From: Tethya wilhelma
Lineage: Eukaryota; Porifera; Demospongiae; Tethyida; Tethyidae
DNA length: 64,000 bases
Direction: 5' to 3'
Assembly (NCBI GenBank): GCA_964030475.1
Contig: CAXIPT010000006.1
Span: forward strand, 5,188,898-5,252,897
Within the stretch, counting starts at the first letter, position 1. The number at the start of each line of letters is the position of its first letter. Below, one piece after another: positions 39-51,664 of this stretch. Both the position numbers and the translations under genes were made by a program. The notes beneath the pieces were generated by a model. It searched no databases. It worked only from the letters and a program-made list of their open reading frames with translations, and was not told where the DNA came from.

Positions 39-54
39 TAGGTTGATTGATTAC

Positions 55-2881
55 TTGTTAGTGAGTCTCCTGAGATCATCACTTCAACAGTCGCCTCAAC
101 TTCAAACTCGACAATATTGATACCCTCTGCACAGATTGAAATAGTCTGTCCATCATTTTCTCTAACGGTCATGTTCCCTGTTATCATCTGTACAGTCACT
201 GCATGATTTTAGAAGATTGTAATACATGGAACATTGTGCATATTAATGATAATTATTATAACACTAACCATCATCATCTGAGATTGTGACACTTGTACTA
301 GCATCAGAGCCACTAATTCCTGAAGGGGTTGATGAGGTCACAGCTACCATGAATGAATGGTTTCCTTCAAAGTTCATATCATCCGTGATGTTGAATGTAA
401 GACAAGGGAATGGCCCAGTGGGAAATGATGAGGAGGATGGGAAAGAATACTCGAGAGGAGGAAGTGGAGAGGTGAAGTCAACACCTTCAACTATAATTTA
501 TATGCATTAGGGGGAAAATGAACCAAAAAAGGAATAATAAATAATACACAAATTGATACATTATTATACTATAAGAATAAGATATAAGGTAGCAATTATT
601 TTAACATGACTGTGTATTATGAACCTGCTGTTCCATCATTGGTGACTTCCACTGTTACAGTCACATCACAATCCAGTGACGCCAGGCTGAATGTTGAGAC
701 AGAGCTACAAACCTCAACTGTATCATCAGTGCCTTCAACAGGGTTGGGAGATACTGTTACAAAACTGAAAATGAAATCAGCCACTGTAGGAAAATGAGAA
801 GAGAACCCAGCAATTTGGGGATAATAGAATTTAATATTCTAATCAGACATATTACTATTATTGTTGTCATGTAGTCATTAATATCTTACAATCTGCTGTA
901 TCCAAGATAATGACTGTTAGCACATCACGATCCGTATCAAGAGTATAGCCTGCAGCTTCAGCATCAGCAGCACTCAAAGTCACAGTGAATGAATGGAAAC
1001 TTTCCAGAGCATTGTCACCAATGATAGATACAATGCTTGATGAAGAGTTTGTACCATTGGAATCACCAACAGCAAATTGAGCAGTGAGAAACTCTTGGTC
1101 AAAGTCATCATTCAGTACTACACAATGTATTGCATACATACAAGTATTCAAATTATATTTGTATTGTGTGGTGACTATTGTATTCTTTGAAACAGAAAAT
1201 GTGATTATAATGCACGTAGCAAAACAGGACTTTTATCAAGATTGAACAATAATTAATAATTTTTGTCATTCACTTAAAATCAGGCATATCACATTGAGGC
1301 ATTACCAGCTTTGCTTCCATTGATTAGAGTTAAAGTGACATCAATCCCAACCTCTAGTACACCAGCTGGACTTCCAGGAGTACTAAGAAGAAGGTCAAAG
1401 GTGACATCAGCTCCTTCTTCCACCTCAATCATGAGATCATCATCAGCAAATCCAACGGTTGCATCTACGGCAACATGGATATAATAAAACAGTTGACTAC
1501 ATGCACATGTGATGAAATTAAGCTTTACAAACTGTACCTTCATCGTCTGTGATTGTCACTGTGATTGGGTTGTTTGTTAGATCAATAACAATTGTGTCAG
1601 GCGATGGATTTACGAGTGATACTGTAAACTGATGATCTCCTTCAAAACAGTCATCATTAACAATTGTGACATTAACACAAGCTTGCATTGCTGGTCCTTC
1701 TGAGAAAGTAGCCGTTGTGGCTCCAGGTGTCACAAAATCATCTATTATTGCTGTAAGAGTGTACAGTAATTATAAATATATGCATGCATGACGTTGATAC
1801 AGATTAAAGGAAACAACATGCATGTATCTAGGTTGATTTATTACTTGTTAGTGAGTCTCCTGAGATCATCACTTCAACAGTTGCCTCAACTTCAAACTCG
1901 ACAATATTAATACCCGCTGCACAGATTGAAATAGTCTGTCCATCATTTTCACTAACAGTCATGTTTCCTGTTATCATCTGTACAGTCACTGCATGATTTT
2001 AGAAGATTGTAATACATGGAACATTGTGCATATTATTGATATTATGACACTAACCATCATCATCTGAAATTGTGACACTTGTACTAGCATTAGAGCCACT
2101 AATTCCTGAAGGGGTTGATGAGGTCACAGCTACTATGAATGAATGGTTCCCTTCAAAGTTCATATCATCCGAGATGTTGAATGTAAGACAAGGGAATGGC
2201 CCAGTGGGAAATGATGAGGAGGATGGGAAAGAATACTCAAGAGGAGGAAGTGGAGAGGTGAAATCAACACCTTCAACTATAATTTATATGCATTAGGGGG
2301 AAAAGTAGCCCATAAAAGAATAAACATTAATACACAAATTGATGCTACATTATAATTATAAGAATATAGGTATAAAGCAACAATTATTTTAACATGACTG
2401 TGTATTATGAACCTGCTATTCCATCATCAGTAACTTCTACAGTTACAGTCACATCACAATCCAGTGACGCTAGGCTGAATGTTGAGACAGAGCTGCAAAC
2501 CTCAAGTGTATCATCAGTGCCTTCAACAGGGTCAGGAAATACATTTACAAAACTGAAAGTGAAATCAGCCACTGTAGGGAAATTAAGAGAACCCATAATT
2601 TTTGATGACAAATAAATAGAAGACATAAAATACACCTATAATAATCTTACAATCTGCTGTATCCAAGATAATCACTGTTAGTACATCACGATCTATATCA
2701 AGAGTATAGCCTGCAGCTTCAGCATCAGCAGCACTCAAAGTCACAGTGAATGAATGGACACCTTCCAGAGCATTGTCAGTAATGATAGATACACTATCTG
2801 TAGTGTAGGAGACCATTCCATTGATATCGTTACGAAGAAACATGACAGTGAGTGTCCTTTGATTAAAGTCCTCATCCAACA
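55..2881. repeat. tandem duplication, period about 1.79 kb
   Basis: The segment 55-1117 (four exons plus introns) is repeated at 1845-2881 with the same exon order. Both exon and intron sequence match closely, including the intron tract beginning ctgcatgattttagaagatt at 199 and 1989. The offset is 1790, 1786, 1788 and 1761 bp at successive exon starts, so only small indels separate the copies. The two exons between the copies (1306-1750) are a more diverged pair. Confidence 0.85.
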
Positions 2882-3254
2882 CTGCAAAGGTAACAAGATT
2901 GAATAAACTATGGTAGTTTGTCCATTTAACTAGTAGATTTTATTTTGGTGGTATGGAGCTTCCGAATTTTACATGTGCATGCATCAATAGTCAAGTGCTT
3001 GATTTGGCAGGTTTAATATCGGCAGTTCTTACCGAAACCACCAATCCGGCAACTTTATATAAATCTGCAAAATCTCCATGCAAATGGGTACTTAAATACT
3101 TTCCCCTCACCTGCTTTGTCTCCATCATTTAGTGTTAAATTGACATCAATTCCAACCTTTAGTGGACCTCCAGTTGTGTTTACACGAAGTCCAAACATGA
3201 CATCCAATCCCTCTTCTACCTCTAGCATAAGGTCATCAAATCCAATTATTGCAT
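55..3254 (-). CDS. gene 1 exons 24-34: Calx-beta domains in a recently duplicated block
   Basis: Exons (5' to 3'): 3111-3254, 2651-2881, 2413-2571, 2055-2276, 1845-1988, 1538-1750, 1306-1464, 890-1117, 625-783, 269-490, 55-198. They alternate N-halves (GFDDLMLEVEEG, ADFTFSFVNV, VTVQMITGNMTV, TVGFADDDLMIEVEEG, ADFIFSFVTV, VTVQMITGNMTV) and C-halves (DEDFNQRTLTV, GVDFTSPLPPLEYSF, DDFVTPGATTATF, NDDFDQEFLTAQF, GVDFTSPL). N-halves with a cysteine (ISICAAG, VEVCSSV) pair with C-halves that carry one (PCLTFNI, QACVNVTI); cysteine-free N-halves pair with cysteine-free C-halves. Confidence 0.82.
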
Positions 3255-6200
3255 CTAAGAAACAAGTATATATAGAAGTCTGAGAAAAAAATTAATAACT
3301 ATTATATTATAAAAAGTTAACAAGAAAGATACAAAACCTGAAAAGCACATCCTTAGATTTTACTGTGTAAACTAACAGAAATAGAGCAATCAGGAGAAAC
3401 CACCATATAAGAAGCTATATAACAAGGCAATCTTGTTTTCTTACTTCCTAACTACCAAACTTAACTGCAATTTTCAAAAGGCATTGAGCTAACTTTGACT
3501 GTACTGTAAAAAGTAATGTCTCCAAAAAAAAAAAAGCCTCTTAGGGGTAAAAAAATTTAACAAGACTTATATTAGTGATAAAAAATTTGTAAAAATGAGC
3601 AGTTTAGGAATGAGCTGTACACTAAAAAGTGAATGATCGAACAAGGCAAGTCTCTGAATTTCGGCACATGTATATATAATTCATATACTTATAAGTTATA
3701 GCTAATTGTAATCTTGAAAAGTGACAAATTGTGAATCTGGTCTTGCTGTTTTATTAGCTTGTTTTGGTTATCAACAGCTAGTCTCTTGCTCTACAAAGTT
3801 TGTATGTTTGCACATTAAGTGCTGCATGTATATATACACCACATGTGAATGTATTTGAACACTATTTGAAATTCAAAAAGTGCCCTTAAAGTACGTATAT
3901 TTTATTAGAATCAGTCAAACAGTTGTAACACAGTACTACACTGAATTTATTTGCTCCTGCATACTATTCAATTTTAGTATCATAATAGTAGTGTCAAGAT
4001 ACAATCTGGAGCAGGTTATATTTATTATATATACGAAGATACCTTCTCTGTCTGTGATAGTCACTATGGCATTATTGTTAGCCCCTATTTCAATCATGTC
4101 TGAAGAACTTGAAAGTCCTACGGTAAACTGGTGATTCCCTTCAAAGCAGTTGTCATTGACAATGTCAATATTTACACACACTTCAGAAGGAACTCCCATT
4201 GGGAAGTCTATAGGAACGCTCGACACAGACTCTCCTTGAGGCAGGATATCATCTGGTATGGCTAAATACACACAGAAAATACAATCTATCAATGATTATC
4301 AACTACATGCAAGTACATTAAAGTTATCATATTAATTATCAATATACTATATATACCTGCAGGAATTTTTCTATGGAAGGAAATAAGTTAAAAAGTTAAC
4401 CTACTTGTCAGAGCGTCTCCCATGAATGTCATATTTAGAAGACCTACTGCATCAATTTCAAAATTATCAATGCCAGAACTCTCTGCACAAACCCGAACAG
4501 GGCCTGGATCGTTTTCAGCAATGGTTGTATCATCAGTTGTTATTTCAACTGTTATAACTGTATTAAATAGAGAACCATACAATGTCAAACATTAATTTAT
4601 GCTGTTTAAAACATTTTTACGGCATAATCACGAAATTCAATCATCCGACAGCAACAGCAAACGCATAAACTTTACAAACAAAAAATTTGGTTGTTATAGT
4701 ATAGTAACTGTATACCTTCATCATTGGTGATAGTCACCGTGACATCATTATTAGAATCAAACACAATCAAATCAAGTGATGGATTTCCAAGAGACACAGT
4801 AAACTGATGATCAGCTTCAAAAGAGTTATCGTCAACAATTGTGACATTAATACACGCTTGATCAGCTACTCCCACTGGAAAAATAGCATTTGTGCCTCCA
4901 GGTGTCATGATGTCATCCATCAGAGCTGTATATGTATTTACATACATACAATGAATTTGATCTACTCTGAACAATTAAGCCAATGCAATAAATTTACATA
5001 TTTGAGAGTCTCCTGTTATCGTCATGTCAACACTTGCTCCAATTTCAAATCTGGTAATATTAATACCCTCTGCACAGATTGGTAAAGTACCAGCAGTACT
5101 CTCATTAACAACCATATCTTCAGTTATCATCTGGACTGTCACTAAATAAATAGTGTGTGTCAGACAAAAACATAAAATAATAATTATTGTTGTAACACAT
5201 AATATTATAAGAAACACGGTTATAACAATTACTATATGCATGCCATTTCGTGCATATTCGTGAGTGTGTATAGCATGACCAGGAATAATGGATATAGGTG
5301 GCTTTTAGAACCAGAGTATTATATGCATGCATGGTGCATGTATCACTAACCATCATCATCTGAGATTGTAACAGTTGTACTTGCATCAGAGCCCCCAATT
5401 CCTGAAGGGGTTGTTGAAATCACAGATACCGAGAAAGAATGGTCCCCTTCAAAGTTGGTATCATCCGTGATGGCAAATGTAAGGCAAGGGAATGGCTCAG
5501 TTGGAAATGATGAGGAGGGGAAAAAGTACACAAGGCGAAATGGAGGAATGAAATCAATATTTTCAGCTGCATGATTTAATGTTTGCAATGAAAAAAATAA
5601 ACTCTAAACATACTGGAGGCATATAGAGGCATAATTAATTTCAAAACTTGATAATGTGCACAAACCTGCTATTAGAGTATCCATGACTTCCACAGTTACA
5701 GTCACATCACACTCCAATGCCGTTAGATTTACTGTTGAAACTGAACTGCAAACATCAATGGTAGCATCAGTACCCTCAACAGGGTTTGGAGACACTGCTA
5801 CAAAACTGAAAATGAAATCAGCCTCTGCAGGGGGGGAGAATACATTAATATTAGTAGTAGTAGTAAATCAATAACACAAATGCATGGATTAACATAAATC
5901 TTACCATCTGCTGTATCCAAGATAATGACTGTTAGCACAGCACAGTCCATACTAAGAGTATAGCCTGCAGCTTCAGCAACAGTAGCACTTAAAGTCACAG
6001 TGAATGAATGGGCACCTTCCAGAACATTGTCAGCAATGATAGATACACTTGACGAGGAACTTTCATCACCATTGTCAGCATTGACATCAAATGTGACAGT
6101 GACAGTGTTTACATCAAAGTCTTGAGTAAGTACTACAACATTTAAACAGTATAATGGTATTGATGGACGGTCGGTAACTATTTATTAAAATACCGTATAG

Positions 6201-9200
6201 ACGGAAACTTTGGCGAGGATTTTTTTTGGCGAAATTGGCGAATTTCGCCAAATCGCCAAAATTAAATACGCCAAAATTTAACCGCAAAACGTAAATATTG
6301 GAATATGCGCCGGTGCGATCACGATAAAACAGTAATAGAGCTATGTTTTCTCCACAGTTCTTCACGAAATAAGCTTGAAACATGCTATCTAAGTGCAGGG
6401 ATACTTAGGCAATAAAATCTATAGCATCGCTTTTGAAAATTTGGTTGCCTGGCTAGAAAAAAGCTTCAGATGCACGGCAATATCACGATCGTCCTGTAGT
6501 TTCTTTTACATGGGAAAAAGCTAATGTAAAAGGCTCTCAGCAGAGTTAGCCTGATTGCTTCTTAGCTTCATTGCAAGAAAAAGCTTTCTCCACTCAAGAA
6601 GGCGTAGCTACTAACCTCGCCGTATTACGTAATGCACTTTCAAAGTTTCACTCGCCAAAATTAATGTTCGCCAATATCGTTTGAGCTCCCTTTTGCCAAA
6701 TTTAATTCTCGCCAAAATAACCGGCCATACGGTACTACTAAAAAATTATTGCCGTGAATGTACATGCATGCATACATAAATTAAATACTAACATGGATTT
6801 GGGGTGGGTGGTGGTGATGTACTATCATCAAAACATCCGATTTCCATGATGTCTGAACAACAATCACCAAGCCTATAGCAGCCCTGGTCACAGTAGCATT
6901 GCCCTTCTGGTACAAAACAGTCTGAGGTACAACACCCTCCACTGAATCCAGCATCTACACACCCTCCTAATCATTGAAGTTATGAAAGTTAGCGACATCA
7001 GACTTTGACATACATTATTGCAAGTGAGTACGCATGCACAATTACTACTAAATATAAGTCTGCATGGACCATGCAGACTTACATTGGTAGTAACTATGTT
7101 TGTAATCAATATACTCAATTTACACAAAGTGGAACAGTAATATTCTGTACCAAGTAATCCTAATCCATCTGATCCTGATCCTGATCCTGATCCTGATCCT
7201 GATCCGAAATCTATAATGACATTAGTATAAGTTGAATTATATGTATTCAAGGTAACTATTGACACAATCTGCATACTATTTTAATCACTCAGTAGAGATG
7301 GAAAAAGACTATAATTATAGCTACTCAAACATTACTGTCAAATTCATGGCGGAAACTTATATACCTCTAACTCTATAGAACTAAATCTGATACCCCTACC
7401 AATTTCCCATTTTTCTGTGCATTATTGTTCTTAACTATATTTATGCTAGCAGTCTTGTGCCCAGATCCTTTTTCTAATTGACAAGCATGCAGCATAGGAA
7501 CGGGAGAGGATAGAAATAAAGTGTTTGAAGATAATAATAATAATAATAAATACAATAATAACCTGCTTTCTCTGCATCATTCAGCATTAAAACGACATCA
7601 ATTGGAATCTGCAGTTGACCAGCTGGATTTCCTGGTGTAGTCAGAAGAAGGTCAAAGGTGACATCAGTTCCTTCTTCCACTGTTACGATGAGGTCATCAT
7701 CAGCAAAACCAACAGTTGCATCTATGTTAGAAAAAAATTCAGTGAATAAAATAAAAACTCAAAAAAAAAAATAAATAAATAAAGAAAATGTATAGCTATC
7801 AAGCAACATTTGTCATGGAGCATCATAGTATATCCTGAGCCATACCTTGTTCATCTGTGATGGTAATATTGACTGAGGAAGGATCTCCAAACGTCAAAGA
7901 AGAAGGACTTTGTGAGTTTGGAACCAAACTCACTTCAAAAGAATGAAATCCTTCAAAGTCATCATCATTCACTATTAACACATTAGCACATGCTTGTAGC
8001 TCAGTACTTGGCCCAGAATGAGTAAAATTAAGTTGTGGAGAAGTTGAAAACTCAACATCATCAGAAGCTGTAGAAATTATTAAAAGTACACATGTGTGTA
8101 TCCAAAAATCAAGAACAAAAAGGATCAATATATAATACTCAGTCGATTGAAATAATATTATAATTATTATGTCAAATAAGTGGCAACTATGAATGATTGC
8201 ACTTTCTTGCATGCACTACTTGTCACAAATCTTTTTGCTTACTTGCCAAACCAAAGCTTCCTATTGCCAAGGTGACTTGTATCGGAGTAGAAACCTCAGC
8301 AGCAGTCACACCACTGATTGTAGCACAAATTTCAATAAGATCTGCTGAATTTTCTTCTGTTTGTGTCACATTAGCCATAATTACTATGTCATTGTCACGT
8401 TCTAAAAAACAACAAAAAAACAAGAATTAAATACTATCTGCATATTTTATTAAACACACTAGTTTAAGATATAATTTTCTTTACCATCATCCATTATCGT
8501 CACTGTACTCTCTGATGGTGGACCAACTGTGATACCATCCGGAGTGGTAGCAGAACCAAAGGAAACTGTAAAGGATTCATCTTCTTCTAGAATGGTGTCA
8601 TCAACAATACTTATATTTGCACAGGCAGTCTGTCCAAGTGAAAACGGTTCATTAAAGACAATAACTGATGGATCGGAAACACTGAAGTCTGTACTTTCCA
8701 TTGCAGAGCCTGAATAAAGTGTATAGACTTACTGTTACAAGTGAAAATTTATAAAATGGACAAAGAAATTAATGCTCATCTCAATGGACTATAGTCACAA
8801 GTATGATCACATACCAGACATGATAGTGAATGGTATTGACACAGTAGTGAAGTTTGAATCCACTGAGTCTGGTAAACCAGTAATCTCTGCACACACACTA
8901 ACTGAGGGACTGGACTCCAGTTGTTGTATATTCTCCTGTTCAACAGCTATTACAAAGTCTTCAGCTGTTCATGACAAAAAGATGTAAATAATTAATCATA
9001 CTACAGATAATCATTAATTAAATTAATTAATTATGTAACATTCCGACACACGAGAACATGAAAAAACAACACAAACATGTGAAAAGCAAACAAATAAAAC
9101 ATAGGAAAGTAATGAGAATATTGAAAAACAATAACTTACCATTGCTTGCCGAAATTGTTATCTCAACTGATGAAAAGGATCCAGTCACAACAAATGTATT

Positions 9201-11597
9201 ACTGTTCATATTTATACTAACTGAAAATGATTCATCAGGCTCCTTTATCTCATCTTCAAGCAATGAAATAGTTAATATTTGATTCAGTGCTCCTCCAGAA
9301 CTAAACAGCACATCTGGTAAAGGGTCAAAATCTTCAAGCTCTATAAAAATTAAGGATATTTGCCTTGATCATTATACAAGAGCAGTTGAGACTATGATGA
9401 AGGCATGAAACACACAATGACCTTACCTGCTGCATCCAAAATGCTAGAGAATGTTACAATTACATTAATGTCAAGATCAGCTATTCCAGATAGAGAAACC
9501 TCAATGGTAACATTTTCACCCTCAATACCAGACAAAGTGGGTGGTCCACCAAAGTTCACAGTTGCCACTATAAATGAATGAAGACTAAGATGAAGTTATG
9601 TTGCAATTAATACTAAAACTTTTACAACTGTACCTTCATCATCCATGATAGTCACTATAACATTATCATTTGAATCAAATACAATCACACTGGGTGATGG
9701 AGTTCCAAGTGTCACAGTAAACAGGTGATCAGCTTCAAAGGAGTTATCTTCAACAATCATGATTTCAATACATGCTGGAACAGCTGCTCCTGTTGAGAAA
9801 CTAGCAGTTATGCCTCCTGGGGTCATAATGTCTTCAGTCAGAGCTGTGTGTAATAATAGTATCCAAAATCAATCCGATTAAAAATGTATAAACTAGTGTA
9901 TGGGGGATCTTACATATTTGAGAGTCTCCAGTGATAATCATTTCAATAGTTGCTCCAACTTCAAACATTGCAATATCTACACCTTCGACACAGATTGAAA
10001 TATTTCCCATGATATCTTCACCAACAATCATATCGTCTGTCATCATCTCGACTGTCACTGTAGGTATACATTAGATGGTATCATAATTATTGTTGGAATA
10101 TATGCATAATATAAGGCTTTTCTTATAGGTAGCACAGCAATGAAACTTTAGAAAACAATGGTATTTTACATTGTGTGATTTACAACTAACCATCATCATC
10201 AGAGATGGTGACAGTTGTACTGGCATCAGAACCAGTGATTCCTGAAGGGCTGGTTGAAATCACATTCACTAAGAAAGAATGGTCACCCTCAAAGTTCATA
10301 TCATCCATGATGTTGAATGTAAGACAAGGGAATGGTTCAGTGGGAAATGATGAGGAGGACGGGAAAGAATACTCAAGCAAAGGTGGAGAGGTGAAATCAG
10401 ATAATTCCTCTGTATATGTTAGCAAGAAAACAAATGAAAAATAAAGTTATTGAAAGCTGATTAACTTGACTTTGGGCATGCATTAACCTGCTATTTCATT
10501 ATCAGTGACTACCACAGTTACAGTCACATCACACTCTAGTGCCACTAAATCGGTGGTTGAAACTGAACTGCAAACCTCAACTGTATCATTAGTGCCTTCA
10601 ATAGGGCTGGGCGACACTGTTACAAAACTGAACATGAAATCAGCCACTGTAAAGAATTAAAAAGGAAACTCAATTTGAAATAACAACAGTTAAATTAACA
10701 GAGGAAAACAAAATACAAAATTATACATTTTTTTTCATAAATGCCTTACAATCTGCTGTATCCAAGATAATGACTGTTAGTACATCACGATCCATATCAA
10801 GAGTATAGCCTGCAGCTTCAGCATCAGCAGCACTCAAAGTCACAGTGAATGAATGGAGACCTTCCAGAACATTGTCAGCAATGATAGATACAATACTTGA
10901 TGTAGAGCTTGTACCATTGGAATTACCAACAGCAAATTGAGCAGTGAGAAACTCTTGGTCAAAGTCAAAATCAAATACTGTAAAGATAGAATAATATTAA
11001 TATTATATTAAAGTAATTTCAATTAGTTGAAGTTTGCAATCAAGATTTGAATTTAACACCTGCTTTATCTCCATTGACAAGTGTTAAAGTGACATCGAGC
11101 CCAATCTGTAATTGGCCAGTTGTAGGATCTCCAGGTGTAGTCAGCAAAAGGTCAAAGGTGACATTAGTTCCTTCTTCCACCATCATCATGAGGTCATCAT
11201 CAGCAAACCCAATAGTTGCATCTAATAAAAAATTAATAAAAATAATAATTCTTCCAATACCAGCCTATCTTTTTGACAATTTGGAACATTTTCTTCCTCA
11301 TGGGTAGTAATTCATGTAGATTATAGTGTCTATACCATGCGCAAATTATGCATACAAATTAATATGTATTATTACCTTGTTCATCTGTGATGGTAATAGT
11401 GACGGAAAAAGGATCTCCAAACGTCAAAGAAGAAGGACTTTGTGAGTCTGGAACCAAACTCACTTCAAAAGAATGAAATCCTTCAAAGTCGTCATCATTC
11501 ACTATTGACACACTAGTACACGCCTGCAGCTCATTACTTGGCCCAGGATTGACAAAATTAAGTCGTGGAGAATTTAATACAACATCTTCAGGAGAAG
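55..11597 (-). CDS. gene 1: large multi-Calx-beta protein with SMB-like insert (partial, both ends missing)
   Basis: Thirty-four exons read on the minus strand from 11597 down to 55, all phase 1 at both ends, with consistent AG acceptors and GT donors. They encode 15 complete two-exon Calx-beta domains, a leading C-half, a trailing N-half, a Gly-Ser linker and a somatomedin-B-like domain. No signal peptide, start or stop is visible; the 5' side runs into a foldback repeat and a 50-N gap, the 3' side into the window-start gap. The exon order matches gene 2 over its first 20 or so exons, and several exons are about 95% identical to it. Repeated acidic DDDG/DDEG ends of the C-halves fit Ca2+ binding. 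The product is probably a secreted or matrix protein; function is inferred from domains only. Exon coordinates are given in the block entries. Confidence 0.82.
3255..4042. other. 788-bp intron of gene 1 with repeat remnants
   Basis: No coding exon was seen. The piece around 3420-3530 matches the inner part of the foldback repeat at 12410-12620 (the tract gagctaactttgactgta). The piece 3576-3668 matches its hairpin arm (the tract ctgaatttcggcacatg). A decayed repeat copy therefore sits in this intron. Confidence 0.6.
4043..6132 (-). CDS. gene 1 exons 17-23: Calx-beta domains downstream of the SMB exon
   Basis: Exons (5' to 3'): 5905-6132, 5666-5824, 5351-5566, 4998-5141, 4716-4925, 4405-4557, 4043-4261. 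The first is the C-half (TQDFDVNTVTVTFDV) of the domain interrupted by the SMB insert. It is followed by ADFIFSFVAVSPNP / NIDFIPPFRLVYFF, VTVQMITEDMVV / DDIMTPGGTNAIF and a divergent pair, VEITTDDTTIAENDPG / PDDILPQGESVSSV. Exon 5666-5824 begins after an unusual ctgcag acceptor in a G-rich tract, where its paralogs start with TGGCTGATTTC; the boundary residue here is Glu rather than Val. Confidence 0.8.
6191..6734. mobile_element. MITE-like element with short terminal inverted repeats
   Basis: About 544 bp lie between the left end taccgtatagacggaa and the right end ggccatacggta, whose reverse complement is taccgtatggcc. Both ends run into a tttggcgag motif, and further ggcgaa/ttcgcc palindromes lie just inside. 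The element sits in the intron between the SMB exon and the next Calx-beta exon. No transposase ORF is present, so it is non-autonomous. Confidence 0.75.
6793..6966 (-). CDS. gene 1 exon 16: somatomedin-B-like domain exon
   Basis: A 174-bp phase 1-1 exon bounded by gattag at the acceptor and gttagt at the donor. The translation is rich in Cys: GCVDAGFSGGCC, TSDCFVPEGQ, CYCDQGCYRLGDCCSDI and EIGCFDDS. The spacing C...C..C......CYCD..C.....DCC.D....C is the signature of the somatomedin-B fold, a small disulfide knot found in vitronectin and ENPP proteins. A Pro/Thr tail (STSPPPTPNP) follows before the donor. No equivalent exon was seen at the matching place in gene 2 (between 17814 and 17897). 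Together with the upstream Gly-Ser exon it separates the two halves of one Calx-beta domain. It could mediate protein binding; that is inference. Confidence 0.78.
7151..7210 (-). CDS. gene 1 exon 15: Gly-Ser repeat linker
   Basis: A 60-bp phase 1-1 exon between tcattatag and gtacag. It encodes FGSGSGSGSGSGSDGLGLLG, six perfect Gly-Ser steps made by a GGATCA hexanucleotide repeat. It lies directly 5' of the SMB exon and probably acts as a flexible spacer. The perfect hexamer is a coding microsatellite and is expected to vary in length between alleles. Confidence 0.72.
7563..8964 (-). CDS. gene 1 exons 10-14: Calx-beta domains upstream of the SMB insert
   Basis: Exons (5' to 3'): 8815-8964, 8485-8709, 8243-8401, 7846-8067, 7563-7721. 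They encode AEDFVIAVEQENIQQLE / MESTDFSVSDPSVIVF, ERDNDIVIMANVTQTEE / SDDVEFSTSPQLNF, and the N-half TVGFADDDLIVTVEEG whose C-half lies beyond the linker and SMB exons at 5905-6132. The order matches gene 2 exons 11-15 one for one. Confidence 0.82.
9140..11597 (-). CDS. gene 1 exons 1-9: first visible Calx-beta domains
   Basis: Exons (5' to 3'): 11376-11597, 11060-11221, 10750-10977, 10488-10646, 10191-10409, 9914-10057, 9634-9843, 9427-9567, 9140-9340. The first is an orphan C-half (SPEDVVLNSPRLNF, ending ITITDEQG). Its acceptor ctacag shows that more exons existed upstream. Next come VGFADDDLMMMVEEG / FDFDQEFLTAQF, ADFMFSFVTVSPSP / LSDFTSPPLLEYSF, VTVEMMTDDMIVGED / TEDIMTPGGITASF and ATVNFGGPPTLSG / LEDFDPLPDVLFSSGG. 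No upstream exon was found between 11598 and the repeat at 11848. Confidence 0.82.
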
Positions 11598-11847
11598 CTG
11601 TAGAAATAGTCAAATACCATTTATTTAAAGCTAGAGCAAAAAATTAATAATTATTAATACACAATAACAAAAGATAGCCATTCAGTAGCAACAAGCAAAG
11701 AATTAACAAACAAAATTAATGTATCAATTAAAATATAACATTGCATTGATGTACTAATAATTCATTACATACACTCATGCGTATCGCTGAGAGAAGGGAG
11801 GCTATAAAGCAAAAGGGGTCTATGTTTAAACATCAATAATATTATGT

Positions 11848-12194
11848 ACAAGTAGTAAAAATTTCAAAAAAATAAGTAGTGTAGGAATGGGCAGTGCGGT
11901 AAAAAGCATTGGAACAAGGCATGTCTCAATTTCGGCACATGCCTACTTCATTTTTGATTTATTCTTGATCCCTATATGGATCCTTTGTGTCATAAATGCA
12001 ATGATCTGGGAAATTCATACTAATCAGTTGGCTAAGCAGTAGAGTAAACCATAACAAGACAGGCAACTTAAACTGGACTGCTGGCCAAGAGTTGGACATA
12101 AAAATGAAGTAGTCATGTGCCGAAATTGAGACATGCCTTGTTCCAATGCTTTTTACCGCACTGCCCATTCCTACACTACTTATTTTTTTCTAAA
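11848..12194. mobile_element. foldback repeat arm pair, copy a (runs into gap)
   Basis: The left arm starts acaagtagtaaaaatttc and contains gtaggaatgggcagtgcggt and caatttcggcacatg. The right arm at about 12103-12194 is its reverse complement. The pair would form a long hairpin of about 110 bp per arm around a 140-bp loop. The right end is cut by the N gap. Related copies lie at 12893, 44056, 44907 and 49424. No coding capacity. Confidence 0.82.
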
Positions 12195-12244
12195 NNNNNN
12201 NNNNNNNNNNNNNNNNNNNNNNNNNNNNNNNNNNNNNNNNNNNN
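12195..12244. other. assembly gap (50 N)
   Basis: Fifty N bases lie inside a repeat cluster. The coding strand flips across this gap: minus to the left, plus to the right. Confidence 0.99.
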
Positions 12245-12892
12245 CAAAATGTTTATGCTTATAAACTTTCAGGGAAAGAAAGCTAAGCCTTCAAATGCAT
12301 TTAATAGCTTCCCACAGACAGTTACCTTACTGTATTAACCAAGAAGACTGGTAAAAAGTTTCTAGAGCACTCTGGAGAGAGCGCTCGCGAGAAGCCACAA
12401 GAGTGCGATTTTGTTTTCTCCTTCCTTCCTTCAGAATACTGATTTCTTACAAGAATCATGCAGGATCTTGCCATTTTGATCTATTTTTAGAAGTAAGATC
12501 TTACATGTCATTTGCAAGAAATTTCTGCCTGGGTACTTACTGCTTCCTAACTGACTTACTTGAACGCGATTTCCAGACAAACAAAAGGTATTGAGCCAAC
12601 TTTGACTACATAGTGAGTCTTCATTTCATCTGTAGTACGTCCTTTTCGACTTGTTTGCCGGCGAAAAGGCAGCAAACAAAATCTAGGCAGCTTTGAAACT
12701 CTTGATATAAAATACTGTACTTTATTTAGCCATTTTAATGTAGGTAAAGGTCGTCAATAGACCACGTGGTTTCTTGCCCAATGCCTATAATGCGCATGCG
12801 CATCAAATGTACACTTCTGTTTTTTGTAGAGACTGACTAGTCTCTGCTGTGTGATTGTCTCCATGCACCTTGGTGTTTAAAAAAGTGAATGA
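12245..12892. repeat. inner ~650-bp segment of the foldback repeat family
   Basis: This stretch matches 44280-44906 in the same orientation and 49818-50418 in the opposite orientation. Shared landmarks include gagccaactttgac, the run agagagcgct, ccacgtgg, gcgcatgcgcat and the final gaatgaacaagtag. No exon or credible ORF is visible. Confidence 0.75.
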
Positions 12893-13235
12893 ACAAGTAG
12901 TAAAAATTTTATAAAAATGAGAAGTGTAGGAATGGGCAGTGCAGTAAAAAGCAAGGAAACAAGACAAGTCTCTGAATTTCGGCACATGACTACTTCATTT
13001 TTGTGCCCAATTCCTTACTGTGCATCTACATTCTACAAGCTTGTTATTTCATCCAAATTAGTCAATTGCTTGCATTGACTCATGAGTCCGACTGTCAAAT
13101 GACCGACATTTATAACTTGACTCATGAAAATGAAGTAGTCATGTGCCGAAATTCAGAGACTTGTCTTGTTTCCTTGCTTTTTACTGCACTGCCCATTCCT
13201 ACACTTCTCATTTTTATAAAATTTTTACTACTTGT
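12893..13235. mobile_element. foldback (hairpin) element, copy b
   Basis: A complete copy running from acaagtagtaaaaatttt to the mirrored aaaatttttactacttgt, with inverted arms of about 110 bp around a loop of about 120 bp. It sits immediately upstream of gene 2 exon 1, inside what is an intron in the paralogous gene 1 copies. This is why the 5' part of gene 2 cannot be followed. Confidence 0.85.
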
Positions 13236-13285
13236 AAATAATGTACACAATGTTCCACGTATTACAATCTTCTAAAATCATACAG

Positions 13286-16200
13286 TGACTGTACAGATGA
13301 TAACAGGGAACATGACTGTTAGTGAAAATGATGGACAGACTATTTCAATCTGTGCAGCGGGTATTAATATTGTCGAGTTTGAAGTTGAGGCAACTGTTGA
13401 AGTGATGATCACAGGAGACTCTCTAACAAGTAATAAATCAACCTAGATACATACATGTCATTACTATTAATCAGTATCAATAACATGCATGCATGTATTT
13501 ATAATTATTGTACACTCTTGTAGCAATAATGGATGATTTTGTGACACCAGGAGGCACAACTGCTACTTTCTCAGAAGGCCCAGCAATGCAAGCTTGTGTT
13601 AATGTCACAATTGTTAATGATGACTGTTTTGAAGGAGATCATCAGTTTACAGTAACTCTTGTAAATCCATCGCCTGACACAATTGTTATTGATCCAACAA
13701 ACAACCCAATCACAGTGACAATCACAGACAATGAAGGTACAGTTGATAAAGCTTAATTTTATCACATGTGTAGTCAACTGTATATATTCATGTTAAATTG
13801 TCGTAGATGCAACCATTGGATTTGCTGATGATGATCTAATGATGGAGGTGGAAGAAGGAACTGATGTCACCTTTGACCTTCTTCTTAGTACACCTGGAGA
13901 TCCAGCTGGTGTACTAAAGGTTGGGATTGATGTCACTTTAACTCTAATCAATGGAAGCAAAGCTGGTATGCCTCAATGTGATATGCCTAAAGACAGAAAT
14001 AATTAATTCTTGATTCAATCTTGATAAAAACAGTCATGTTTTGCTACGTGCAATATAATCACATTTTCTGTTTCAAAGAATATAATTTGAATACTTGTAT
14101 GTATTTGTATGCAATACATTGTGTAGTACTGAATGATGACTTTGACCAAGAGTTCCTCACTGCTCAATTTGCTGTTGGCGATTTCAATGGTACAAACTCT
14201 TCATCAAGCATTGTATCTATCATTGCTGACAATACTCTTGAAAGTGTCCATTCATTCACTGTGGCTTTGAGTGCCGCTGATGCTGAAGGTGCAGGCTATA
14301 CTCTTGATATGGATCGTGATGTGCTAACAGTCATTATCACTGATACAGCAGATTGTAAGATATTAATTACTACAAGACAACAATAATAACATGGCCGATT
14401 AGAATATTTATCATCTCAAAATGGGTTCTGTTTTGATTTCCCTACAGTGGCTGATTTCACTTTCAGCTTTGTAGCAGTATCTCCTAATCCTGTTGAAGGC
14501 ACTGATGATACAGTTGAGGTTTGCAGTTCAGTAACAACCAGCCTTGTGGCACTGGAGTGTGATGTGACTGTAACAGTGGAAGTCATGGATACTCTAATAG
14601 CAAGTTAGTTGTAATACATTGCCACAGTAGTAAATTTAATTGCATTATCTACATGTATCCATTCTTAGTATGAGTACATAGCATCATACTGTTTTCCCTT
14701 CTTATTGATAATAATCATACAGCTAAAGGTGTTGATTTCACCTCTCCACTTTCTCCTCTCGAGTATTCTTTCTCGTCCTCCTCACCATTTCCACCATGGC
14801 CATTCCCTTGTCTTACATTCAACATCATGGATGATATGAACTTTGAAGGGAACCATTCATTCATAGTAGCTGTGACCTCATCAACCCCTTCAGGAATTGG
14901 TGGCTCTAATGCTAGTACAAGTGTCACAATCTCAGATGATGATGGTTAGTTATAAACTATTCAACTGGCATTATACTGTATATATCTTGAAACTTTCATC
15001 TGCTTTTCATACATAAAAAGGAATATTCTTTATAGGAATGCATAAAGTCGCATATTTGCATTTCTACATTTATTGTGTTAGTTTTGTTATTTTTGTCTTT
15101 TCTGCATGACACACTACATATCTGCAGTGACAGTCCAGATGATAACAGAAGATATAATTTTCAGTGAAGATTCTGCAGGCAATATTTCAATCTGTGCAGC
15201 AGGTGTTAATATTAGCATGTTTGAGGTTGAAGCAAGTGTTGACATGTTGATCACAGGAGACTCTCAAATATGTAAGAATATATTCACTCATGGAGTTATA
15301 GTTAATCAGATGTTAGTACATGTGTATATATATATTATATACACAGCTCTGACAGAAGACATTATGACACCAGGAGGCATAACTGCTAGTTTCTCAACAG
15401 GAGCAGCTGGTCAAGCATGTATTGAAATCATGATTGTTGAAGATAACTCCTTTGAAGCTGATCACCTGTTTACTGTGACACTTGGAAATCCATCACCCAG
15501 TGTGATTGTATTTGATTCAAATGATGATGTCACAGTGACTATCATGGATGATGAAGGTATAGTTGTAAAGTTGTGGTATTAATTGCAACATAACTTCATC
15601 TTAGTCTTCATTCATTTATAGTGGCAACTGTGAACTTTGGTGGACCACCTGCTTTGTCTGGTGTTGAAGGTGTAAATGTTACCATTGAAGTTTCTCTCTC
15701 TGGAATAGCTGATCTTGACATTGATGTAACTGTGGCGTTCTCTAGCATTTTGGATGCAGCAGGTAGAGTTTTGAGTTTTACACCTCCATCATAGTCTGTA
15801 CATATTGTACACTTGTATGTACTGATTACTAAAAATCTTCAACATACTTTTGTTTCATAGAGCTTGAAGATTTTGACTCTTTGCCAGATGTGCAGTTTAG
15901 TTCTGGAGGAGCACTGAATCAAACATTAACTATTTCGTTGCTTGAAGATGAGATAAAGGAGCCTGATGAATCATTTTCAGTTAACATAAATATGAATAGT
16001 AATCCAAGTGTTGTCACCGGATCCTTTTCATCAGTTGAAATAACAATTTTGGCAAGCAATAGTAAGTTATTGTTTTTGAATATTTTCATTACATTCATAT
16101 TTTTTTTCACTTGTTTGTGTTGCTTTTTTCATCTCCTCCTTGTGTGCCGGAATGTTACATAATTAAAAATTAATGATTGTCCGTCTATACTATAGTGTGA

Positions 16201-17583: not shown

Positions 17584-20500
17584 GTATGTAAAATATATAA
17601 TATGCGTAGCATCACTTAATATCCTTGCAAATATACTTGATTGTCTTTTTTTATTTTATTTTAGATGCAACCATTGGATTTGCTGATACTGACCTTACAG
17701 TAACTGTTGATGAGGGAAATGTCCTCACTTTTGAGCTTCTTTTGAATACACCAGGAGGTCAACTTGAAGTTCCGATTAATGTAACATCAACACTTGTAAA
17801 TGGAGAGAAAGCAGGTAAAGTATACTTGTATGAGTTCAAAAGTTTAGTCATACAGCCAACTATAGTGTATACTTCGATATTGTTATATCTCTTCAGTGTA
17901 TCTGCAAGATTTTGATCAAGCGACCGTCTCTGCTATTTTTATGGTAACCAATACCAATAATAGTAGATCTACATCAGATAATGTGACAATCATTGCTGAC
18001 AATGCTTTGGAAGGAGAGCATTCATTCACTGTGACTTTGAGTGCTGCTGATGCTGAAGCTGCAGGCTATACTCTTGATATGGATCGTGATGTGCTAACAG
18101 TCATTATCCCTGATATGGCAGATTGTATGTGAACTATGATTGCCATTAAAGGTTTGGTTTATCCATCTTCTTTCTACATGTAGTGGAGGATTTCAGATTC
18201 TTCTTTATACCTACTCCTAATCCAACTGAAGATATGGACAATAATATCGTTTCTGTTTGTGGTTTTGCTCTGTTGTCTGGAATTACACTGGAGTGTAATG
18301 TCACTGTATTTGTTGATGTCACAGATAACATGATAGCAGGTATAAAAATATAATATTATGCTCTCAGTCCTAGAGGTGATCATTAATGTTAACAGTGCCA
18401 AGCAACCACTATAATGTAATACTGATCTCTATTTATTTATATTAAAATTAATACACAGATGAAGGTGTGGATTTTGTATCTCCAATGTCAAACACTTCTG
18501 AACTCGCCTATTTCTTTGACACATCGACTGTAACTGGACCATCTAACTGTCTTGATTTTGAGCTCGTTGATGATATGAACTTTGAAGGAAATCATGTCTT
18601 TACAGTATCTGTATCTTCTGTAACTCCTCCTGGAATAAACGTTGCGGCAATTACCACTATTACAATCTTTGATGATGACGGTTTGTTCAATACAAACTTA
18701 ATACGATCATTATTTCGCACAATAATCACTGCATAAACCTAGCAATTTTGAATTATGTTAGTAGTATCATTTCCAGAATATGTTTATGCATGAAAGATCA
18801 TTGGAAAAATTTTTGAAATCTAGCTGGGATTAGAACCCAGGTCTTAATTTTGAACTTTGGTCGAATGCTCTTACCACTAGACTAACTAGAGCTCACAGGC
18901 ATTAGAGCAGGGAATAGCAGTATACACTACTATTTATAGACACTATATAGTCAACTTCCAAACTAGATCTCAAGGCCTACATGTAATAGCATGACCCGTA
19001 TGAATCGTATGATGCATACATTGCCAGTATGTTCTTCCCAACTGGACAAACTTCATCCTTTCTTGTTCTTATGCATTCACCTATAGTGACTGTTAGGATG
19101 GCAACAGAGGACGTAACTATTCGTGAAAATGATGAAGCCACTATTACAATTTGTGCGGAGGGTGTGGACAAGAATATGTTTGAAATTCCAGCAAGTGTTC
19201 AAATGATGATCACAGGAGATGCATGTAAGCACATCTCACTTCATTTCCACCTTGTCTTGTGTACACAAAATGAGCATTCTCTTAATTTATCATCAAGTTT
19301 TATTGTATGATTAATGCACACAGCTATGCCAGATGATATTACAATATCAACATCAGAGGATGTTGATGGTAACTTCCAAGTGAACTTCACTGTCGGACCA
19401 GCAGAGCCAGCTTGTCTAAACATCACTATTGTCGATGATGACTGTTTTGAAGGAGACCATCAGTTTACTGTAACACTTGTGAATCCATCACCATCTCTGA
19501 TCCAACTTGACCCAGATAATTCTGTTACTGTGACCATCACAGATGCAGAAGGTATAGAAAATCAAGCATACACGTACTTAAAGCTACTGTTTAGTATTAC
19601 CTGGCACATACTCTCAGTATTGTTATACTACCTATGCAGATGCTACTATCGGCTTTGCTGATGAGGACCTTACAGTGACAGTGGATGAGGGAAGTACTTT
19701 CCCATTTAACCTTTTCCTGAACACATCAGGAGGTCCACTAAAGATTGAGATTGATGTCACTTTAACACTGAATGATGGAGACAAAGCAGGTGAATTATAG
19801 TGTCTATTTCTTGATTGTCCGACTTATGCAGTATATACCAAGTGTATGCTTTCACTTTGATAGTTTTATTTAACTATGCTACCTCTACAGTTTTGAATCA
19901 GGACTTTGATCAAAGGACCCTCATTGTTATGTTTCTTGTTAATGATGGCAATGGAGTAGAGCAGTCCACTATAGAAAATGTATCTATCATTGCTGACAAT
20001 GCTCTTGAAGGTGTCCATTCATTCACTGTGACTTTGAGTGCTGCTGATGCTGAAGCTGCAGGCTATACTCTTGATATGGATCGTGATGTGCTAACAGTTA
20101 TTATCCCTGATATGGCAGATTGTATGTGAACTATGATTGCCATTATAGGTTTGTTTTTATTCATCTTTTTTGTACATGTAGTGGAGAGATTCAGTTTCTT
20201 CTTTATACCTACTCCTAATCCAACCGAAGATATGGACAATAATATCATTTCTGTTTGTGGTTTTGCTCTGTTGTCTGGAATTACACTGGAGTGTAATGTC
20301 ACTGTATTTGTTGATGTCACAGATAACATGATAGCAGGTATGCACAGTGCTAGTGCTAGAGGTGATCATTAATGATTTATTAACAGTGCAATGCAACCAC
20401 TATGTTGATGCTTTATTATGTGAATCTATTTATTTATATCTAAATACACAGATGAAGGTGTGGATTTCATACCTCCAATGTCAAACACTTCTGAACTCGC

Positions 20501-44055: not shown

Positions 44056-44250
44056 ACAAGTAGCAAAAATTTCAAAAAAAATAAGTAGTGTAGGAATGGG
44101 CAGTGCGGTAAAAAGTATTGGAACAAGGAATGTCTCAATTTCGGCACATGACTACTTCATTTTTATGCTTAATCCCTCATATGGATCCTCAGTATCATAA
44201 ACACAATGATAATAAATTATTATGTACATAGTATACCATAGCTTATTATN
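44056..44250. mobile_element. foldback repeat arm, copy c (cut by gap)
   Basis: One arm starts acaagtagcaaaaatttc inside what should be the intron following array copy 7, and includes caatttcggcacatgactac. The sequence breaks at the single N at 44250 before the mirrored arm appears. Confidence 0.75.
44250..44250. other. assembly gap (single n)
   Basis: One ambiguous base within the foldback repeat. The array intron to its left does not resume on the right, so continuity across this point is doubtful. Confidence 0.9.
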
Positions 44251-50949: not shown

Positions 50950-51664
50950 GGATGAACTTGTGAGTGTCACAGAAAAATCATGATCGCCTTCGTAACAGTT
51001 ATCATTCATAATTATGATGGTTGCACACTGTTGGCCTGGAGGTGTAGCACTGACAGGGAAGGTCAGGTCAGTTGGAGCAGGTGACATCAGATCACCTGGT
51101 GGTAAACAATTTTTCACACATGATAATATTGGTAAATAGAATAAATATTACTCTAACTCAGCTACTAGGTTATACATTACCTGCCACTGTGAATAGGGTG
51201 TCTTCTGAAATCGCCAGACCCACAGTTGCAGTGATTTCAAGTAAATTTGCACCCTCAAACTCAGCACAGATCATTATTTCATCTTCATCATTTTCATTGG
51301 TATCCTGATCCGTAGTCACCATACTTACAGTAACTGTAAGTATGCACATATAATAAGAGTAAAATTCTCACTGTAGGTCTATGGCATAATATTATACTGA
51401 GTTAATGACTGACCAATTTCATTATCAAAGATTGTAACAATGGCAGTTGCAGCCGCAGCAGAGCCACCAGCAGAGCCACCAATTCCAGAAGGAGTTGTTG
51501 AAGACACAGTTACCATAAAGGACTCATCTCCTTCAAAGTTCAGATCATTGACAATACCAAATGTAAGGCAAGGGCCTGGTCCAGTCATCATAGTTGATGA
51601 GGGGAAGGTATATTGAAGAGATGATGGAGAAGAGAAATCAGCTGGATCATCTGTAATAAGCATG

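Follow-up and report, generated by a model that had tools for sequence, protein, structure and literature searches.

The window, by which we mean the whole 64,000-nucleotide stretch analysed here (positions 5188898-5252897 of contig C6, in a genome of 124.6 Mb and 204 contigs), carries Calx-beta half exons on both strands across its first 26 kb and, by our own reading, Calx-beta-like open frames that go on up to its end. Gene 1 (55-11597, minus strand) reads as alternating Calx-beta half exons, 16 N-halves and 16 C-halves, and is truncated by a run of unknown bases (N) at 1-38 and, upstream, by a gap at 12195-12244; positions 39-12194 contain no N. Every detected exon of its Calx-beta array is phase 1-1, with each domain divided by one phase 1 intron. 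Genes 1 and 2 are head-to-head paralogous arrays flanking the 50-N gap (region 11597-13286), near which there are related open frames in opposite orientation. Single Ns also occur at 44250, 47585, 50949 and 58227 of the window.

The N/C alternation of gene 1 is interrupted at one domain alone, hereafter the host domain, where two further exons lie between the halves. Reading along the minus strand, these are the N-half exon (7563-7721), a Gly-Ser (GS) linker exon of 60 nt with six GS repeats (7151-7210), a somatomedin B (SMB)-like exon of 174 nt encoding ten cysteines and a Pro-rich tail (6793-6966), and the C-half exon (5905-6132). All four are phase 1-1 and flanked by AG before and GT after, at the coordinates given in the initial annotation. 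The GS and SMB-like exons amount to 78 codons and would add 78 residues to the host domain. Profiles detect 33 exons in gene 1, namely 16 N-halves, 16 C-halves and the SMB-like exon between an N-half and its own C-half; the GS exon, for which there is no profile, falls outside this count. Borders of the two host halves were taken from sibling exons, an automatic exon caller that rewarded splice score too having favoured 7757-7554 and 6177-5905. Most of the 660-bp intron that separates the SMB-like exon from the C-half is taken up by a dispersed repeat (6191-6734, minus strand) whose inverted ends are short and imperfect. With 40 of 335 candidates scored, at least 54 genomic matches were counted for this repeat; at least nine other copies are near full length, with 91-92% identity.

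Elsewhere in the window the host domain type occurs six more times, always uninterrupted, with N-halves starting (lower coordinate) at 11060, 3111 and 1306 in gene 1 and at 13807, 17665 and 19640 in gene 2. Their mid-domain introns measure 68-229 bp as called, or 82-229 bp if homology is used to set the starts of two overextended C-halves. The gene 1 alternation being otherwise unbroken, the claim that N- and C-halves are adjacent exons elsewhere holds for gene 1 and for these copies; at the matching position of gene 2 (17665-18124, plus strand; N-half 17665-17814, C-half 17897-18124) the short, insert-free intron had also been recognised correctly, although its length is 82 bp (17815-17896) and not 83 bp. 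The seven C-half copies (5905-6132, 10750-10977, 2651-2881 and 890-1117 on the minus strand; 14127-14354, 17897-18124 and 19894-20121 on the plus strand) are highly variable in the first part of the exon and near-identical in the last, and dN approaches dS when the full exon is counted, a pattern which diversification or gene conversion would explain.

The host domain and the position of the insert

When joined, the host halves score 21.2 bits against Pfam Calx-beta, and 18.2 bits with the insert included, so that the expected match falls below the cut-off of 27 bits. The profile homology to NCX1 and CALX nonetheless holds: all ten joined N+C domains match Pfam Calx-beta at E up to 1 (best 4.3e-19), and a profile made from these ten domains, host first, matches NCX1 (3us9; E 1.5e-14) and CALX (3rb5; E 8.4e-13). 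Compared with its six siblings, the host N-half shows dN/dS values of 0.38-0.59 (sibling pairs 0.25-0.99) and the host C-half values of 0.68-1.48 (sibling pairs 0.57-1.43). No purifying selection on the host C-half was detected by dN/dS in this comparison with six siblings; as a group the C-halves change their protein sequence about as fast as silent sites, and hence no constraint on the host fold is evident.

In the alignment with NCX1, EDGTANA precedes and SDYEFTEG follows the exon junction; the intron interrupts a codon that lies four codons before an Asp invariant in all ten domains. From its spacing to the DDD motif, this Asp would be the equivalent of NCX1 Asp421, a residue described as coordinating Ca2 in isolated CBD1 (PMC3386913). 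The CD and EF loops of CBD1 are reported to adjoin the FG loop of the next domain (PMC9820601). By alignment, the insert is predicted to sit in the C-D loop, just before the Asp421 equivalent, and the module would emerge from that end of the sandwich which binds Ca2+; alignment to NCX1 and CALX is consistent with the earlier suggestion of an insertion at a domain loop. By our reading, the host keeps equivalents of the Ca2+ ligands Asp421, Asp447 and Glu451 and has Ala in place of Asp446, while a Glu385 equivalent is assigned by analogy alone. On this reading, the Asp and Glu residues of the Ca2+ sites of NCX1 and CALX CBD1 and CBD2 are partly retained, but the domains here form a tandem array and one C-D loop would be interrupted by 78 residues, whereas the splice variation described for NCX/CALX affects another loop, the FG loop of CBD2 (PMC9820601).

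The SMB-like module and its relatives

SMB domains share the eight-cysteine order C-x3-C-x6-C-x-C-x3-C-x5-CC-x6-C, and this order can be read directly in the Cys-rich exon. Against Pfam Somatomedin_B, the exon alone gives E = 0.019 (15.7 bits; cut-off 23.1), for which reason we call it SMB-like and regard it as a divergent relative. Because the joined peptide yielded only sub-threshold Pfam matches for both SMB and Calx-beta, family profiles were used instead. A search of the genome with the SMB-like exon returned 21 places with E no higher than 10, one of them the exon itself; five of the 21 (the window exon and four relatives elsewhere) reached 1e-12 or better; the Pfam search, the window exon and three further queries together gave 38 distinct places, a count that leaves out one fold-back copy. 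A family profile of 24 exons from fetched loci matches a uridylate-specific endoribonuclease (9ftw; E 5.3e-5) and SUSD2 (2cqw; E 8.1e-4) and, weakly, ENPP1 and ENPP2 (4b56 and 5dlt; E 0.035-0.093). PF01033 recognises 22 of these 24 exons with E values of 1 or less (best 7.8e-5), and eight of the nine invariant columns in their alignment are Cys. A single-sequence structure model of the window exon alone has a mean pLDDT of 47.4, too low for a fold to be read from it. The proposed SMB homology draws more on the family profile than on the window exon alone, and the SMB label of the initial annotation, for which a match exists but below the Pfam cut-off, is carried by that profile. Besides the profile match and the cysteine order that it has in common with the SMB domains of SUSD2, the endoribonuclease and ENPP1/ENPP2, the window exon differs from known SMB domains in having two further N-terminal cysteines, in scoring below the Pfam cut-off on its own and in lying inside another domain.

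The SMB-like exon is under strong purifying selection. Its reading frame and all ten cysteines are intact, and compared with its relatives at four other places (L027a, L027b, L029 and L031) it shows dN of 0.10-0.14 and dS of 0.90-1.28 (NG86); against L037, dN is 0.24 and dS is saturated. On the window branch, dN/dS is 0.064 (bootstrap limits 0.011-0.26) or 0.049 (0.007-0.19) depending on which of two choices of comparison is made, over 45 codons of the window exon. At the DNA level, the window resembles the fetched SMB loci in its SMB exon and GS repeat but not in the introns.

The modules of L027, which lies on the same contig 275 kb from the window, are 73-78% identical to that of the window. 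The order there is a C-half with a GS tail, an SMB exon with a Pro-rich tail, a GS piece, a second SMB exon and a second GS piece. L027 thus resembles the window in its SMB modules, GS exons and one Pro-rich tail, but differs in that both SMB exons follow a complete N-C pair (its N-half being weak, E 0.9) with no evidence of nesting; the next N-half after them was not found in the 10-kb piece. Two of these L027 GS pieces end in GGATTCATTG or GGATTTATTG, followed by GTAGGT, and the window GS exon ends in GGATTACTTG, followed by GTACAG. These ends are likely homologous, with the weaker donor in the window. Seven Gly-Ser runs, by our own rule, were found in 260 kb of fetched sequence, and six of them lie within 800 nt of a same-strand SMB exon, a space that makes up 7.1% of the total. 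At loci which were picked for SMB and not for GS, this corresponds to P = 9e-7 if the runs are independent, or P = 1e-4 when counted as four of five loci. The seventh run (window 51457-51480) has a different setting. No Gly-Ser run lies within 800 nt of 19 of the 24 SMB exons, so the pairing is common for GS runs and is not a rule for SMB exons.

Recurrence of nesting elsewhere in the genome

The surroundings of 24 of the 38 SMB-like places were examined, in 10-kb pieces or in the window itself. Eight of these exons adjoin same-strand Calx-beta halves: two are nested, two follow an N-half for which no C-half was recovered, and four are without evidence of nesting. In the pieces around the other 16, no Calx-beta half was detected. 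The second nested case is L037 (minus strand; N-half 6453-6298, SMB-like exon 5168-5028, C-half 4176-3946), which has no N in its 10 kb. Here the host is the domain type that directly precedes the window's host type, and the copy of the window's host type that L037 itself carries has no insert (called intron, 58 bp). The nested arrangement is not a unique event, having a gapless counterpart in another type of Calx-beta domain. L037 also has a possible further phase 1-1 exon (4380-4517, minus strand), Gln/Ser-rich and charged, which lies between its SMB-like exon and its C-half.

At L030/L029 and at L031, an N-half is followed by an SMB-like exon. No C-half behind the L029 exon turned up in L029, L032 or L046, and L031 stops at a fold-back and a single N, so neither was counted as nested; being 86% alike in the intron, the two represent one event. 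At 7150-7256 of L031 the SMB-like exon runs on into an inverted copy of itself and a single N, likely an assembly fold-back. L036 and L040 have an SMB-like exon in front of an N-half. Introns of both kinds are open to a phase 1-1 exon, and such mixed placement does not establish a preference for mid-domain introns. Clusters of SMB-like exons are present at L038, L039, L042 and L045, where the fetched pieces showed no Calx-beta half, and a further cluster lies at 11.974-11.993 Mb of contig C2.

Probable origin and role of the nested cassette

The reading that we regard as probable for the data as a whole is that an SMB-like module became nested in a Calx-beta domain by phase 1 exon shuffling. 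Gene 1 would code for a long Calx-beta array with a phase 1 intron inside each domain, one of which a symmetric cassette, GS plus SMB-like exon, would have entered by exon shuffling or duplication. Both exons are phase 1-1, the intron that holds them is phase 1 and divides a domain, the domain type has six empty copies, and candidate sources of the cassette exist at L027 and other loci, its relatives occurring in further Calx-beta genes of this genome. The product is expected to retain a Calx-beta-type fold whose C-D loop, at the end that binds Ca2+, presents the SMB-like module with its Gly-Ser stalk and Pro-rich tail; its role would most likely be that of a protein-binding knob set sideways on a Ca2+-stiffened rod.

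How the insert would be spliced bears on two of the alternatives. Splice sites were scored with a home-made matrix for which this window was the training set. The SMB acceptor reaches -0.2, under all 116 training acceptors, and the GS donor scores 1.9 (2nd percentile of 115); the host C-half acceptor scores 3.6 (4th percentile of 116), and the sole nearby same-phase alternative SMB acceptor that was scored, 3 nt on, is worse at -5.2. The two SMB exons of L027, by contrast, have strong acceptors (11.7 and 14.4). As both inserted exons are symmetric, and skipping them would preserve the frame, the weakness of two of their sites suggests that the insert is probably optional and enters only part of the transcripts. 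The stronger form of this idea, that the two are alternative cassette exons, with plain Calx-beta the usual product and the insert used in some tissues, is a serious contender to which we give slightly less than even chances; it refines and overlaps the shuffling explanation, but the scores come from a window-trained matrix and constitutive sites can be weak too. The same weak acceptor, the weakest of the set, and weak donor could instead mark an SMB-like exon that was recently silenced or is an intronic fossil, with 7563 spliced to 6132, and the GS exon, a hexanucleotide repeat, could be a mere microsatellite. We consider this unlikely, given ten intact cysteines in an intact frame, a branch dN/dS near 0.05-0.06 and a GS exon end that resembles the L027 GS pieces, although a very recent loss of the SMB-like exon is possible.

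The remaining alternatives concern what the insert belongs to and whether the locus is real. Finding 16 of the 24 SMB-like exons in pieces with no detected Calx-beta half would fit an SMB-like exon that comes from a separate transcript within the intron, but strand and phase match both neighbours and no open frame with splice-like ends and a profile match accompanies it in 7562-6133, the GS exon aside, which makes this very improbable. Exon order alone cannot fix where a domain starts in an alternating array, and the repeating unit might be a C-half followed by an N-half, placing the module between domains. Against such a unit, single-frame Calx-beta copies in the genome span Pfam positions 5-119 in the order N then C, and the joined N+C profile matches CALX CBD1 at profile positions 5-126; we give it hardly any weight. 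Equally slight is the chance of an assembly chimera, a type of error for which the fold-back at L031 and the gaps in the window offer a precedent, as there is no N at 39-12194 and L037 is nested independently with no N in 10 kb.

Shuffling of extracellular modules as phase 1-1 exons is a classic pattern, and the present case follows it in having symmetric exons in phase 1 introns; it departs from it because the target intron of the window lies inside a domain, so that the product would be nested. In a protein database search with the joined host-domain peptide (209 residues), nothing was matched at E up to 0.001 among 7993 scored candidates, long relatives being outside its reach; a second search, for which 1145 residues were taken from the 2087 of joined gene 1 and residues 815-1018 used for scoring, likewise gave no match at that threshold among 7982 scored candidates. 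A nested SMB-in-Calx-beta architecture was not found among the titles and abstract openings of a literature whose coverage mostly excludes subscription papers, where one paper names both somatomedin B and Calx-beta in a figure legend on sponge receptors (PMC8242945).

Nested domains are mostly known as finished proteins from which the route of origin has been lost. Here, a single genome still displays the exon borders and their phase, copies that lack the insert, sister cassettes, and another insertion in a different domain type, which makes the step from intron to nested domain traceable and testable. If the nested product is expressed, it also shows that a Calx-beta sandwich can accommodate a folded, disulfide-containing module next to an aspartate that binds Ca2+. 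More speculatively, and with rather low probability, the mid-domain intron may serve as an insertion slot from which SMB-like cassettes are optionally spliced into the C-D loops of different domains and gene copies; were that so, one gene family would decorate a Ca2+-dependent adhesion rod with varied side knobs, perhaps as a recognition surface.
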